Source: Candidatus Zixiibacteriota bacterium (lineage in GTDB: Bacteria > Zixibacteria > MSB-5A5 > GN15 > FEB-12). Taken from it: a stretch of 64,000 nucleotides of DNA. Below are positions 47,731-61,051 of this stretch, in pieces. The stretch spans positions 62,001 to 126,000 of the forward strand of contig JAOUBJ010000013.1 in NCBI GenBank assembly GCA_029860345.1, given 5' to 3'. A program made the translations under genes and the position numbers. Under the pieces are notes generated by a model. That model ran no database searches. It saw nothing but the letters and a program-made list of their open reading frames with translations, and was not told the DNA's origin. How positions within the stretch are numbered: position 1 is the first letter of the stretch; each line of letters begins with the position of its first letter.

Positions 47731-48558
47731 ATGAAACGGTTTACCGTCAAAGAACTCGCCTCAGCCGGACTGATTGCCTCGTTGTATACCGTACTCAGTC
47801 TTGCCTTCATGCCGATTTCATTCGGCGTCTATCAGATCAGGGTTGCCGAAGCCCTCACTGTGCTGCCCTTTCTCACTCGGGCCGCCGTGCCCGGTCTGTA
47901 TATCGGATGTCTTTTGGCCAATATCATTGGCGGCATGGGCTGGCTGGATATTGTATTTGGTCCCTTAATCACTCTTGCTGCAGCCCTGATTACGCGCGGG
48001 CTTTACCATCTGTCACGGCGACCGGTCACGTTGTTGCCTGCGGTTGTACCGGTGGTTCTAATGTGGGGCGGGTCGATTTACCTGCTCAATGGAGGAGCTG
48101 TTACGATCAACACGGTCAGCGGGGTAGGGCTGTCGCTGCTCTCACTCGTCTTGATTCTGTTCACTGAAAAGAAACGCGCCGCCGGTGCTGCCACCGAATT
48201 GGTCGACTGGCTGCTGCGCGCGCTATCGATGGCTTTGGCCCTGGTCGCGGTTTTTCTGCTCAGGCAGACCGACGATACTTTTGTTTTTCTGTGTGGCGCG
48301 ATCACATGGCTGGCCACGCCGGTTGTAACGGCGTTACTGGCCCGCCTGTGGTTCTCCGGCGACAACCCGAACCTTCTGATTGCACCATTACCGCCGGTGC
48401 TGCTGAACGCCTTCGGTGTTTCGGCCTATCTCGCACCGCTGATCGGCGTGAGCTATTGGTTCTCGGTGCAGATGGTCGGTGTCGGTCAGTTGATCGCCTG
48501 CTACCTGATCGGCCTGCCGATACTCATCCTTTTGCAGCGACGAAAGAGTGTTTTTTAA
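47731..48558 (+). CDS. QueT-family transporter with a large internal insertion
   Basis: The N-terminal ~98 residues (SFGVYQIRVAEALTVLPFLT, then YIGCLLANIIGGMGWLDIVF) and the C-terminal ~60 (APLPPVLLNAFGVSAYLAPL, VGVGQLIACYLIGLPILILL) match QueT, the substrate-binding component of a putative queuosine-precursor ECF transporter. The usual family length is about 150-170 residues; here 275. The extra ~110 residues in the middle add roughly three hydrophobic helices and a charged loop with EKKRAAGAATELVDWLL. It sits alone between a WYL regulator and the microcompartment pair. Function may be changed by the insertion. Confidence 0.8.
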   Translation: MKRFTVKELASAGLIASLYTVLSLAFMPISFGVYQIRVAEALTVLPFLTRAAVPGLYIGCLLANIIGGMGWLDIVFGPLITLAAALITRGLYHLSRRPVTLLPAVVPVVLMWGGSIYLLNGGAVTINTVSGVGLSLLSLVLILFTEKKRAAGAATELVDWLLRALSMALALVAVFLLRQTDDTFVFLCGAITWLATPVVTALLARLWFSGDNPNLLIAPLPPVLLNAFGVSAYLAPLIGVSYWFSVQMVGVGQLIACYLIGLPILILLQRRKSVF

Positions 48559-48971: not shown

Positions 48972-50438
48972 ATGGCTGATTCCGACCAAAACCCGGCTGT
49001 TGATGATATTGTCCGGTTGGTCCTAAAAGAACTCGACGACGCCAAAAGCGGCTCACCAGAACAATCCGACACCGGGGCGACTACGGCTGTCTGCGAACCG
49101 GACGACAGTTGTTGTCTTTTCAGCAGCCTTGACGATGCCGTCGAATCAGCCCGCATGGCCCAGCGCAAGTTCCTCGACCTCTCGATGGAACGACGCGGCC
49201 ACATTGTCGAGACCATTCGCGGGCGGGCTCTCGAAAGCGCCGAGCGGCTGGGGCAGTTGGCGGTCGATGAGACCGGTCTGGGCAAAATGCCGGACAAAAA
49301 AAACAAGATAATCCTGTGTGCCCGAAAAACCCCCGGCCCCGAAGACCTCAAACCGGAAGCCTTCTCAGGCGACAACGGCCTCACGCTGGTCGAACCGGCG
49401 CCGTGGGGGGTGGTCGGATCAATCACACCGTCCACCAACCCGCCGTCGACTGTGCTCAACAACGCTATCTCGATAATCTCAGCCGGTAATGCTGCCGTTT
49501 TCAACCCGCACCCTTCGGCCAAGAATGTCTCCGGGCAGATGGCGCGACTGGTTCACGATGCAATTGTCGAAGCGGGCGGTCCGGAGAACCTGGTCACCTG
49601 TATCTCGCAACCGACTATTGAGTCCGCCCAGGCGCTCTGGAGCCACAAACATATCGATTTGGTACTGGTCACCGGCGGTGGTGCGGTGGTGAAAGCTGCT
49701 ATGGTCTCAGGCAAGCGGGCCATCTGTGCCGGTCCGGGCAACCCGCCGGTCGTGGTCGATGAAACGGCTATCCTGCCGCACGCTGGGCAGTGTATTGTCA
49801 CCGGCGCGTCGTTTGACAACAACGTGCTGTGTACCGATGAAAAAGAAATCTTCGTCGTCGACAAAGTAGCGCATCGTTTGAAACGCGAGATGATCGCCAA
49901 TGGTGCATTCGAGTTGGACGGAATCGCCATAGATAAACTAACCAATTTATTGGTCGAACGCGACCCTGACGGACAGGGTTACCGTCATGTCGGGATCAAC
50001 CGCAACTTTGTCGGCAAGCCGCCCGATGAAATCCTGAAACAGATCGATGTCGTCCCGCCGCCCGGCACCAAGCTTGTCTTTTTTGAAGCACCGTGGGACC
50101 ACCCGTTGGTCATGGCTGAACAACTGATGCCGGTCATTCCGATGGTGCGCTGCAAGACTGTCGAAGAGGCGATGGAGAAGGCGGTCATTGTCGAGCACCA
50201 GTACAAGCACACTTTTGTCATGCACTCTACATCGATTGTCAACCTCTCCAACATGGCGCAATTGTGCCGCGCCAATATCTTTGTCAAGAACGGCTTCAAC
50301 ATGGCCGGTCTTGGATACGGGGGAGAGGGTTTCGCATCAATGTCGATCGCCGGCACCACCGGCGAAGGCATCACTAAAGCCTCCACCTTCACCCGCCCCC
50401 GCCGCTGCACTTTAGTCGATTATTTTAGGATTGTGTAG
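48972..50438 (+). CDS. CoA-acylating aldehyde dehydrogenase of a microcompartment (PduP/EutE-like)
   Basis: The 488-residue protein has the aldehyde dehydrogenase fold with the CoA-acylating branch's features. These are APWGVVGSITPSTNPPSTVL, VTGGGAVVKAAMVSGKRAIC, AGPGNPPVVVD, the catalytic cysteine in SFDNNVLCTDEKEIFVV, and KHTFVMHSTSIVNLSNMAQL. It would turn an aldehyde, NAD+ and CoA into acyl-CoA within a shell. The first ~25 residues (NPAVDDIVRLVLKELDDA) form an amphipathic helix followed by a flexible stretch, like the cargo-targeting peptides of PduP. The linker contains CEPDDSCCLF, an unusual cysteine cluster. Substrate identity cannot be read from sequence. Confidence 0.93.
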   Translation: MADSDQNPAVDDIVRLVLKELDDAKSGSPEQSDTGATTAVCEPDDSCCLFSSLDDAVESARMAQRKFLDLSMERRGHIVETIRGRALESAERLGQLAVDETGLGKMPDKKNKIILCARKTPGPEDLKPEAFSGDNGLTLVEPAPWGVVGSITPSTNPPSTVLNNAISIISAGNAAVFNPHPSAKNVSGQMARLVHDAIVEAGGPENLVTCISQPTIESAQALWSHKHIDLVLVTGGGAVVKAAMVSGKRAICAGPGNPPVVVDETAILPHAGQCIVTGASFDNNVLCTDEKEIFVVDKVAHRLKREMIANGAFELDGIAIDKLTNLLVERDPDGQGYRHVGINRNFVGKPPDEILKQIDVVPPPGTKLVFFEAPWDHPLVMAEQLMPVIPMVRCKTVEEAMEKAVIVEHQYKHTFVMHSTSIVNLSNMAQLCRANIFVKNGFNMAGLGYGGEGFASMSIAGTTGEGITKASTFTRPRRCTLVDYFRIV

Positions 50439-50451
50439 GGGGGGAGGGGGG

Positions 50452-51867
50452 ATGATGAGTCGAAGAAGCAAGGGTTCAAAAGAGAACCTGAAAGTCGTTC
50501 GGTCACGCACCAGAGCCAAGCTTTCGGATCTACTATCGCTCGACTTCTTTGGTAAGAGAGCAGTTGCCTGCCTGGAGCTTCCTGCGCCAGAGTACGCCAC
50601 GCTTTCTCGCGCCTCAGTGCCCAAGCTGAAGTCGGTGGCAGAGATCATGTTGAGTTCTTGGTCCAGATTGATTGAGGGCGAATTGCCACCCGTCAAGGGA
50701 TGCAAGTGGATATGCCCTCACGGCCACGAGCATCGTATCGAACATATCGAAATACGGGACCGGATGCTCATGATAGCTATAGCATATTACGATGCGGCGG
50801 TACGTCAGTTCATCATCCGCAATGATGGTAAGCAGGGTAATCCGCCGGGCATGCACATTCGTCACATTGAAGCAGTAAGTCAAAAACTGGACGTATCAAC
50901 CGAATCAGAATTCGATTTGACTACCATGAAGACGGCTAGGATGCTGTACTTCAATGGACTATTCTATGCCTACTTCGCGGGGCTTCTTAGAAGATCTGAC
51001 GGACCCAAGGGTACGACCGACGTATTCGAACGTAACTTACACTCGATGCTGCAAAAACTGCATTCGCTGCCATTTGCTCCTAAATCGGCAGTCTTGCAGC
51101 TCGCGGTCCGGCGCATGCTTCAGGGTCTCTTAGACCTGAGTGCCGAGATTTATGGGGAAGTAGCACCTCGCTCACCACACCATATGCCCGGGGTATTTTC
51201 TGCAATTCGACTGGACGAACTCACATCGTTGGCAAAGAGAGACAAGGCTGCTATGCAGCGGTATGGATCTAAGCAGGTTGAAAAGGTCTTTGAGTGGCAG
51301 CTGGCGTTAATCGTCCAGTCCTTCGGATTGACTGTGGTATCCACACGATCTGGACAGAAGACGGTCGATTTGTTGTGCATTTCAGGTTCACCGGACCAAT
51401 GCACTTTCTTGCTGGAGGCCAAAACTTCAAAGTCAGCGTACACCCTTCCTACATCCGACGCACGGGCACTCCGTGAGTATGTTGAAACTGTGCAGAGTAC
51501 ATTGGTGAATCTTCCTAGGCTACGTTTCGTCCTTGTAGTAGGCGGAGAACCTGCGAAGACTCTAAGAAACAAGATCATCAATCTCGAAGCGAAAGTAGGA
51601 GTCCCTGTTAGATTCATCGCCGCCTCTGAGTTGGCCCGTCTGCGAGAGGGTCTTCCGGGTCCGCTTCCAATGGGACCTTTCGTCGATAGACTGATCACCT
51701 ACGGGCAAATTCTTGACGGGGCTTTTGTAGACTCGATCGTGCGAGCTTATGTGAAAGAGCATTCCGCAACCAGTAACTTCGTCGAGACATTACTTTCCAT
51801 TCGTGGCGTGACTAGTCACAGGCTACCGTGGATGGACGGAGACCCGGCATGTGAACTAGGTGAGTAG
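50452..51867 (+). CDS. Unfamiliar protein with a PD-(D/E)XK nuclease-like core
   Basis: I do not recognise the family of this 471-residue protein. Residues about 265-355 resemble a restriction-endonuclease-like core. A helix VEKVFEWQLALIVQSFGLTV is followed by STRSGQKTVDLLCIS and a strand CTFLLEAKTSKSAYTL, giving the D-(x)n-E-x-K pattern, with a glutamate in the preceding helix. The N-terminal part is basic and contains CKWICPHGHEHRIEH, which might bind metal. The body between is helical and includes LRRSDGPKGTTDVFERNLHS. It starts 13 bases after the aldehyde dehydrogenase gene on the same strand, behind a G-rich run. Codon and base use look less GC-rich than the neighbours, so a transferred gene is possible. 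Confidence 0.62.
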   Translation: MMSRRSKGSKENLKVVRSRTRAKLSDLLSLDFFGKRAVACLELPAPEYATLSRASVPKLKSVAEIMLSSWSRLIEGELPPVKGCKWICPHGHEHRIEHIEIRDRMLMIAIAYYDAAVRQFIIRNDGKQGNPPGMHIRHIEAVSQKLDVSTESEFDLTTMKTARMLYFNGLFYAYFAGLLRRSDGPKGTTDVFERNLHSMLQKLHSLPFAPKSAVLQLAVRRMLQGLLDLSAEIYGEVAPRSPHHMPGVFSAIRLDELTSLAKRDKAAMQRYGSKQVEKVFEWQLALIVQSFGLTVVSTRSGQKTVDLLCISGSPDQCTFLLEAKTSKSAYTLPTSDARALREYVETVQSTLVNLPRLRFVLVVGGEPAKTLRNKIINLEAKVGVPVRFIAASELARLREGLPGPLPMGPFVDRLITYGQILDGAFVDSIVRAYVKEHSATSNFVETLLSIRGVTSHRLPWMDGDPACELGE

Positions 51868-51879
51868 CCCGGCCGGTGG

Positions 51880-51952
51880 CCCACAGCTTGCTGTGGGATT
51901 CTAGGCATCTTCGAAGCATTAACAGCTTTGAGGTCACAGATTGTGACCTCAA
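51880..51952. terminator. Two hairpins between convergent genes
   Basis: CCCACAGC-TT-GCTGTGGG lies at 51880-51897, and TTGAGGTCAC-AGATT-GTGACCTCAA at 51928-51952. Both are perfect. Neither has a long T-tract, but their place between genes ending at 51867 (plus) and 51975 (minus) fits a bidirectional stop. Confidence 0.5.
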
Positions 51953-60110: not shown

Positions 60111-60223
60111 AGCTATTTCCTTTCTTTTCAGCTTTTGTTACCAACCCATTCCAGTCCGTCGCCAAACTAATTCTCGGAGCCATATATGCAAGAAAAAAAT
60201 GCAGGGCCTGCGACTGGCTCTAT

Positions 60224-61051
60224 TTATTGTTTTAGGGCACCGGCTGTTATGCCCGAGACGATCTGACGCTGGAGCAATATGAAAACCAGCAGCACCGGCA
60301 GTACGGCAATCGTCGAACCAGCCATCAGGTGCGGCCAGTCGATTGCCTGGTGTCCCTGCAGTAGCGCCAAAGCCACGGGCAAAGTTCGCAGTTCGGCGCT
60401 GGACGTGAGTATGAACGGGAAGAGGAACGAATTCCAATTGGTAAAAAAGACCTGAATAGCCAGTACGGCCAGGGCGGGGCGACAGAGTGGCATCACTATG
60501 GTCAGAAGGATTCGCAAGTCGGAGGCTCCGTCGATGCGCGCCGCTTCTTCCATCGAGGGTGGGATGGACTCCACATACTGCTTGACCAGGAAAATCCCGA
60601 TCGGGTTCACCAGGAAGGGGAGGATCAGCGCCCAGTAAGTGTCGTAGAGACGTGCTTTCATCATCAAGACGTAAAGTGGAATGATCACTATGTGGGCCGG
60701 TATCATCAGCACGACAATGACCGAGACGAACATGAGGCGATTGGACAACAGACGAAAGCGGGCCAGCGAATAGCCGGTCATGAAACAAAACAGGATATTG
60801 CCCAGCGTGACCGAGAGGCCGACCAACATCGAGTTTGCGAAGGCCCGTCCCAGTCCACCTTGAGAAAGCAGGTCGGCGAAATTGGCCAGGGTGAAACCAC
60901 CCTCCAACCATCCGGATGTACCAAGACTGCTGGAGAGATCCATCACGGCAATCCGCATCATCCACAGCAGAGGATAGGACATGGCGGCCAGGATCAGACC
61001 AAGCCCCAGGTATCTCAGAACGTCTCGTGTACGCGCTCCGGTTTCTACCAC
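60224..61051 (-). CDS. Carbohydrate ABC transporter permease (MalG/UgpE-like)
   Basis: The 275-residue protein has six membrane helices and the permease EAA loop PPSMEEAARIDGASDLRILL followed by PLCRPALAVL. It matches the second permease of CUT1-type sugar importers, with the C-terminal GITAGALKQ typical of the family (VxGLTxGAVKG). Its start overlaps the first permease gene by seven bases. The ATPase subunit (MsmX/MalK-like) is absent from the window and could be shared from another locus, as happens for many CUT1 systems. Confidence 0.93.
   Translation of the reverse strand: MVETGARTRDVLRYLGLGLILAAMSYPLLWMMRIAVMDLSSSLGTSGWLEGGFTLANFADLLSQGGLGRAFANSMLVGLSVTLGNILFCFMTGYSLARFRLLSNRLMFVSVIVVLMIPAHIVIIPLYVLMMKARLYDTYWALILPFLVNPIGIFLVKQYVESIPPSMEEAARIDGASDLRILLTIVMPLCRPALAVLAIQVFFTNWNSFLFPFILTSSAELRTLPVALALLQGHQAIDWPHLMAGSTIAVLPVLLVFILLQRQIVSGITAGALKQ

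Follow-up and report, generated by a model that had tools for sequence, protein, structure and literature searches.

A putative stand-alone nuclease with a predicted FokI-like cleavage half, encoded behind a microcompartment aldehyde dehydrogenase gene in a Zixibacteria genome

What kind of protein is encoded directly behind the aldehyde dehydrogenase gene (AldDH) of a bacterial microcompartment locus when it resembles no recognised family? This question is raised by a 471-aa protein encoded in a stretch of 64,000 nucleotides from a Candidatus Zixiibacteriota bacterium (the window), in which the AldDH gene comes after a EutM-type shell gene (Table 1). An initial annotation suspected a nuclease core in the protein and offered three possible roles, namely a stand-alone defence nuclease, a repair enzyme or a mobile-element remnant. 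On balance, the results described below favor a stand-alone DNA nuclease that was acquired by horizontal transfer and defends the cell against phage or other foreign DNA.

Table 1. Features of the nuclease gene and its immediate surroundings (window positions).
Feature	Position	Strand	Remark
Upstream microcompartment aldehyde dehydrogenase (AldDH) gene	48972..50438	+	3' end recurs as junction with accessory genes in relatives
Intergenic gap, 13 nt, G-rich, ribosome-binding-like (GGGAGGGGGG)	50439..50451	+	AldDH stop to ATG; sequence read directly
Gene of the 471-aa protein	50452..51867	+	intact ORF; N-terminal helical region plus predicted FokI-type PD-(D/E)XK nuclease domain
N-terminal region, residues 1-249	50452..51198	+	helical in low-confidence model; no known family
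CxxxCxHGHEH cluster, residues 84-94	50701..50733	+	not kept in homologue
Nuclease domain, residues 250-471	51199..51864	+	FokI cleavage-domain fold in predicted structure
E281, glutamate in segment helical in model	51292..51294	+	invariant with homologue and FokI-type enzymes
D306, putative first catalytic acid	51367..51369	+	aligns with FokI D450 position
E322-A-K324, (D/E)xK motif	51415..51423	+	aligns with FokI D467-T-K469 position
R338 to E342, charge-swapped counterpart of FokI dimer pair D483/R487	51463..51477	+	
REP-like palindrome GGTGGCCCACAGCTTGCTGTGGG, dispersed	51875..51897	+	just past nuclease gene; genome-wide repeat, outside gene

Family searches agreed with the initial annotation in that Pfam, NCBIfam, PADLOC, PHROGs and the PDB sequences contain nothing that matches the protein. 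The full protein also found nothing in genome contigs, viral contigs, plasmids, phages or PDB sequences, and it is absent at E 0.001 from the other 131 genomes of the phylum, where weak matches lie above that threshold. No description of such a protein type was found in the literature. The segment EAKTSKSAYTLPTSDARALREYV looks like the FokI cleavage domain by eye, and a degenerate DNA pattern of the positions shared with FokI was scanned over 84,980 genomes. Thirteen of the 31 stretches that it returned are FokI-type enzymes, and FokI itself was recovered in its own source strain (L074) and confirmed by its Pfam domains. One stretch is a true homologue, and the remaining loci (e.g., L050 and L054) were dropped as chance matches.

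The homologue is a 417-aa protein of Nocardia vinacea, a member of another phylum (L053:359-1612). The two proteins share 43% identity over residues 256-448 (E 1e-46), whereas the N-terminal half of the Nocardia protein is shorter and divergent, with weak similarity to that of the 471-aa protein. The Nocardia protein as a query found nothing among plasmids. A joint profile built from both nuclease domains was run in about 1,430 genome searches, which covered Actinomycetes, the family of Nocardia, Gammaproteobacteria and Alphaproteobacteria, and it added no members. Motif matches in viruses were ParA-like false positives, and a repeat scan of viruses yielded nothing. The known members number two.

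The structure of residues 250-471 was predicted from an alignment of the 471-aa protein (P0001), its homologue (L053) and nine FokI-type rows, which had been chosen via the motif shared with the 471-aa protein; the model reached a pLDDT of 84.7 and a pTM of 0.79. The initial annotation had staked its reading on a PD-(D/E)XK core, and the predicted structure has this fold, with FokI, BspD6I and HindIII as the top matches. The best solved match is FokI, a type IIS enzyme (PDB 2fok/1fok; Foldseek E 6.2e-7; Z 17.0 over 161 residues, rmsd 2.6), a first rank that is partly built in because the alignment held nine FokI-type sequences. The next matches are Nt.BspD6I (Z 14.2), R.BspD6I2 (Z 12.8) and HindIII (Z 10.7), and both BspD6I and HindIII were absent from the alignment. 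The nicking and heterodimeric type IIS-related BspD6I enzymes resemble the model in fold, but they have only about 11-12% sequence identity to the 471-aa protein and a recognition part that is not seen in it. Thus, the model supports a restriction-endonuclease-like PD-(D/E)XK fold for the C-terminal half, and we predict that this half folds like the FokI cleavage domain.

The relationship to FokI can also be followed in the sequence. When the two-member nuclease alignment was compared, profile to profile, with nine FokI-type domains, the match had a probability of 75.7 (E 2.4e-5), and P0001 alone scored 30.1 against the FokI-type profile compared to a maximum of 23.6 for column-shuffled controls (n=150). 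When the scanned motif was masked, the profile score fell to 15.0 and the signal was gone, so that the sequence evidence for kinship with FokI rests on one segment. FokI and the 471-aa protein have in common the predicted fold of the nuclease half, the active-site positions, a K-x5-Y-x-L-P-x3-A-x5-Y-V motif and the order of an N-terminal half followed by a cleavage half. However, the Pfam FokI cleavage domain (PF09254) has no match to the 471-aa protein at E 10, while the same library finds FokI at 5e-63. Because of this, the protein is best described as working like the FokI family rather than as a confirmed member of it.

The residues expected of a nuclease are present. As the initial annotation had proposed from the spacing of TVDLLCIS and FLLEAKTSK, D306 lies in the first of these segments and E322-A-K324 in the second, with 16 positions from D to E; the glutamate that it had placed in a helix ahead of the core is E281, and this segment is helical in the predicted structure. 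E281, D306, E322 and K324 are kept in the Nocardia homologue and align with the catalytic positions of the FokI-type enzymes, and in the predicted structure they fall at the active site. One departure is that the (D/E)xK motif has E where FokI has D. A second concerns the dimer interface. Substitution of FokI D483 and R487 has been used for making obligate heterodimer nucleases (PMC3789796). These positions are D and R in 13 of 13 FokI-type sequences, and they are R and E (R338 and E342) in both the 471-aa protein and its Nocardia homologue. The presence of the R/E pair in both members suggests a dimer with the same geometry as that of FokI and with its charges reversed.

The N-terminal half is a different matter. 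A single-sequence prediction of the whole protein reached a pLDDT of only 35, and consequently there is no usable model of this half, which is unrelated to that of FokI; Pfam finds the FokI recognition domains D1-D3 in FokI and none of them in the 471-aa protein. The Cys/His cluster to which the initial annotation had drawn attention is present and reads C84-KWI-C88-P-HGHEH. It is not conserved, as C88 is the only one of its cysteines with a counterpart in the homologue, and conservation gives no support for a zinc-binding role.

The domain order of the 471-aa protein raises the possibility, which we rate at about one chance in four, that it is a solitary type IIS-like restriction enzyme. Its N-terminal half would recognise a sequence or a modified base and its C-terminal half would cut, and the host would be shielded by an unlinked methyltransferase or, as in type IV-like systems, by lack of the modification. 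The closest folds, FokI and BspD6I, have the same order of a recognition half and then a cleavage half, and the lack of a neighboring methyltransferase is consistent with such an enzyme: a Pfam scan of the 17 flanking proteins found no restriction-system DNA methyltransferase and no helicase, as the initial annotation had noted for the adjoining genes. One of the 17 is an O6-methylguanine repair protein. On the other hand, the FokI recognition-domain families do not match and the N-terminal half belongs to no known family. Since it has neither a linked methyltransferase nor recognition domains, the protein is not classifiable as a type IIS restriction-modification enzyme. The combination of a FokI-like half and an unrecognised half that has no partner methyltransferase makes a stand-alone nuclease directed against phage or foreign DNA the most likely reading.

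The gene itself appears to be a newcomer. Its GC content is 0.511 and, in line with the foreign composition that had been suspected, its GC3 (0.538) is the lowest in the window, except for one probable wrong-frame ORF at 60138-60911. Its synonymous codon use also differs from that of the other window genes more than any other except the same ORF (z = 5.8), i.e., the gene is foreign by codon use. The protein is rare, and its gene was probably acquired horizontally. It is probably read from the AldDH transcript; despite its position directly behind AldDH, its role probably has nothing to do with the microcompartment. A gene for a QueT-type transporter (window positions 47731-48558) lies directly upstream of the shell gene.

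The position directly behind AldDH is occupied by different genes in different genomes of the phylum. For example, three genomes of one genus (g4) have a common downstream peptidase gene and unlike genes between it and AldDH. In one of these three (L091 in G009), AldDH is followed by a 346-aa protein that matches PDC-S02, a candidate defence family in PADLOC (E 4e-6), and has a weak HSDR_N match; it is preceded by a 136-aa ORF, which matches DUF4145 weakly. Short copies of the AldDH 3' end also stand beside other orphan genes in two genomes from the genus of the window, neither of which yielded a full AldDH (L011, G003:C437, 1349-1402 and 1503-1613; L012, G001:C10, 323-433; L045, G001:C118, about 1500-1585). 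These copies are about 18 to 37 codons long, and some are preceded by promoter-like and ribosome-binding-like sequence. The AldDH 3' end thus has the look of a junction where accessory genes recur.

Two models of how genes might enter this site were considered and rejected. An integron-like cassette came to mind because a hairpin sits 3' of the nuclease gene, but this palindrome is REP-like and dispersed: its pattern matches the genome 19 times, including three matches spaced 122 nt apart on one contig (C8), and it is not tied to cargo genes. Searches for flanking repeats and AldDH-end copies likewise gave no support for integration with flanking repeats.

The AldDH-end copies could also mean that the gene belongs to a selfish element, such as a small mobile unit that travels together with the 3' end of AldDH and uses the nuclease for its own transfer or maintenance. 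The two genomes with such copies beside orphan genes argue for this, as do a weak integrase match and a transposase downstream of the Nocardia homologue. However, the window's genome has no second AldDH-end copy, the nuclease gene has no clear flanking repeats, and the nuclease is not shared by the orphan genes at the site, so we consider this explanation improbable. A nuclease for repair or recombination of the cell's own DNA structures is slightly less probable still. The PD-(D/E)XK repair nucleases EndoMS and Hjc are among the weaker fold matches, but they score far below FokI, BspD6I and HindIII, and a gene that is nearly unique in its phylum and compositionally foreign does not resemble a core repair gene. 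Finally, a catalytically dead or decaying remnant, which the lone gene without a recognised partner might suggest, is very unlikely and is at odds with the full-length ORF and with the retention of the catalytic residues and the interface pair in a homologue from another phylum.

Of the three roles first offered, the homologue contexts agree best with that of a stand-alone defence nuclease. There are no defence genes among the neighbors of the 471-aa protein gene. The neighborhood of the homologue, which the initial annotation had recommended for inspection, does contain a candidate. LmuA is the nuclease of Lamassu systems, and about 300 nt downstream of the Nocardia homologue, on the same strand, is a gene for a 631-aa protein (L053:1909-3804) whose N-terminal part matches LmuA in PADLOC (E 3.9e-6); it has no Pfam match. 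The weak integrase match and then the transposase lie beyond it; on the other side, upstream of the homologue, the contig breaks off. The homologue and the LmuA-like protein are possibly a two-gene system there. The contexts hint at defence, and they consist of one homologue near a contig end and one unrelated gene at the same post-AldDH site. The PADLOC 2023 component profiles match neither the 471-aa protein nor its homologue.

Among known defence systems, a comparison can be made with Shedu, whose protein SduA provides defence from a single gene and has its PD-(D/E)XK nuclease at the C-terminus. The likeness concerns only how the two might work, i.e., a single gene with an N-terminal helper region and a nuclease. 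The structural match to SduA (Z about 7) is much weaker than that to FokI, and the 471-aa protein has no Pfam or PADLOC Shedu match.

In FokI, the recognition half keeps the nuclease inactive. By analogy, we infer that the N-terminal helical region of the 471-aa protein may sense or bind a trigger, either DNA or a phage product, and restrain the nuclease. Once triggered, two nuclease domains would pair via the helix with R338 and E342, with a polarity opposite to that of D483/R487 in FokI, and the paired domains would cut DNA by means of a metal ion that D306 and E322 bind, with assistance from K324. Since the host is not shielded by a linked methyltransferase, it is probable that cutting is controlled by a modification or structure of the DNA or by an infection signal, or else that it kills the infected cell.

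A broader proposal, which we make tentatively and consider a good deal less probable than a defence role as such, is that the two proteins represent a new family of defence nucleases, each encoded by one gene and working without a methyltransferase. Its members would combine a sensor half with a FokI-type domain whose dimer interface is naturally charge-reversed and perhaps does not pair with FokI, and they would be exchanged via a hotspot at the AldDH 3' end. With only two members found, such a claim could readily be tested and as readily overturned.

The FokI cleavage domain is known mainly from restriction-modification enzymes, and it underlies the zinc-finger and TALE nucleases. A stand-alone protein that combines this domain with an unrecognised activating half and a reversed dimer salt bridge would widen the known use of the FokI module and suggest a new defence trigger; in addition, nature would have provided a cleavage module that perhaps does not pair with FokI.
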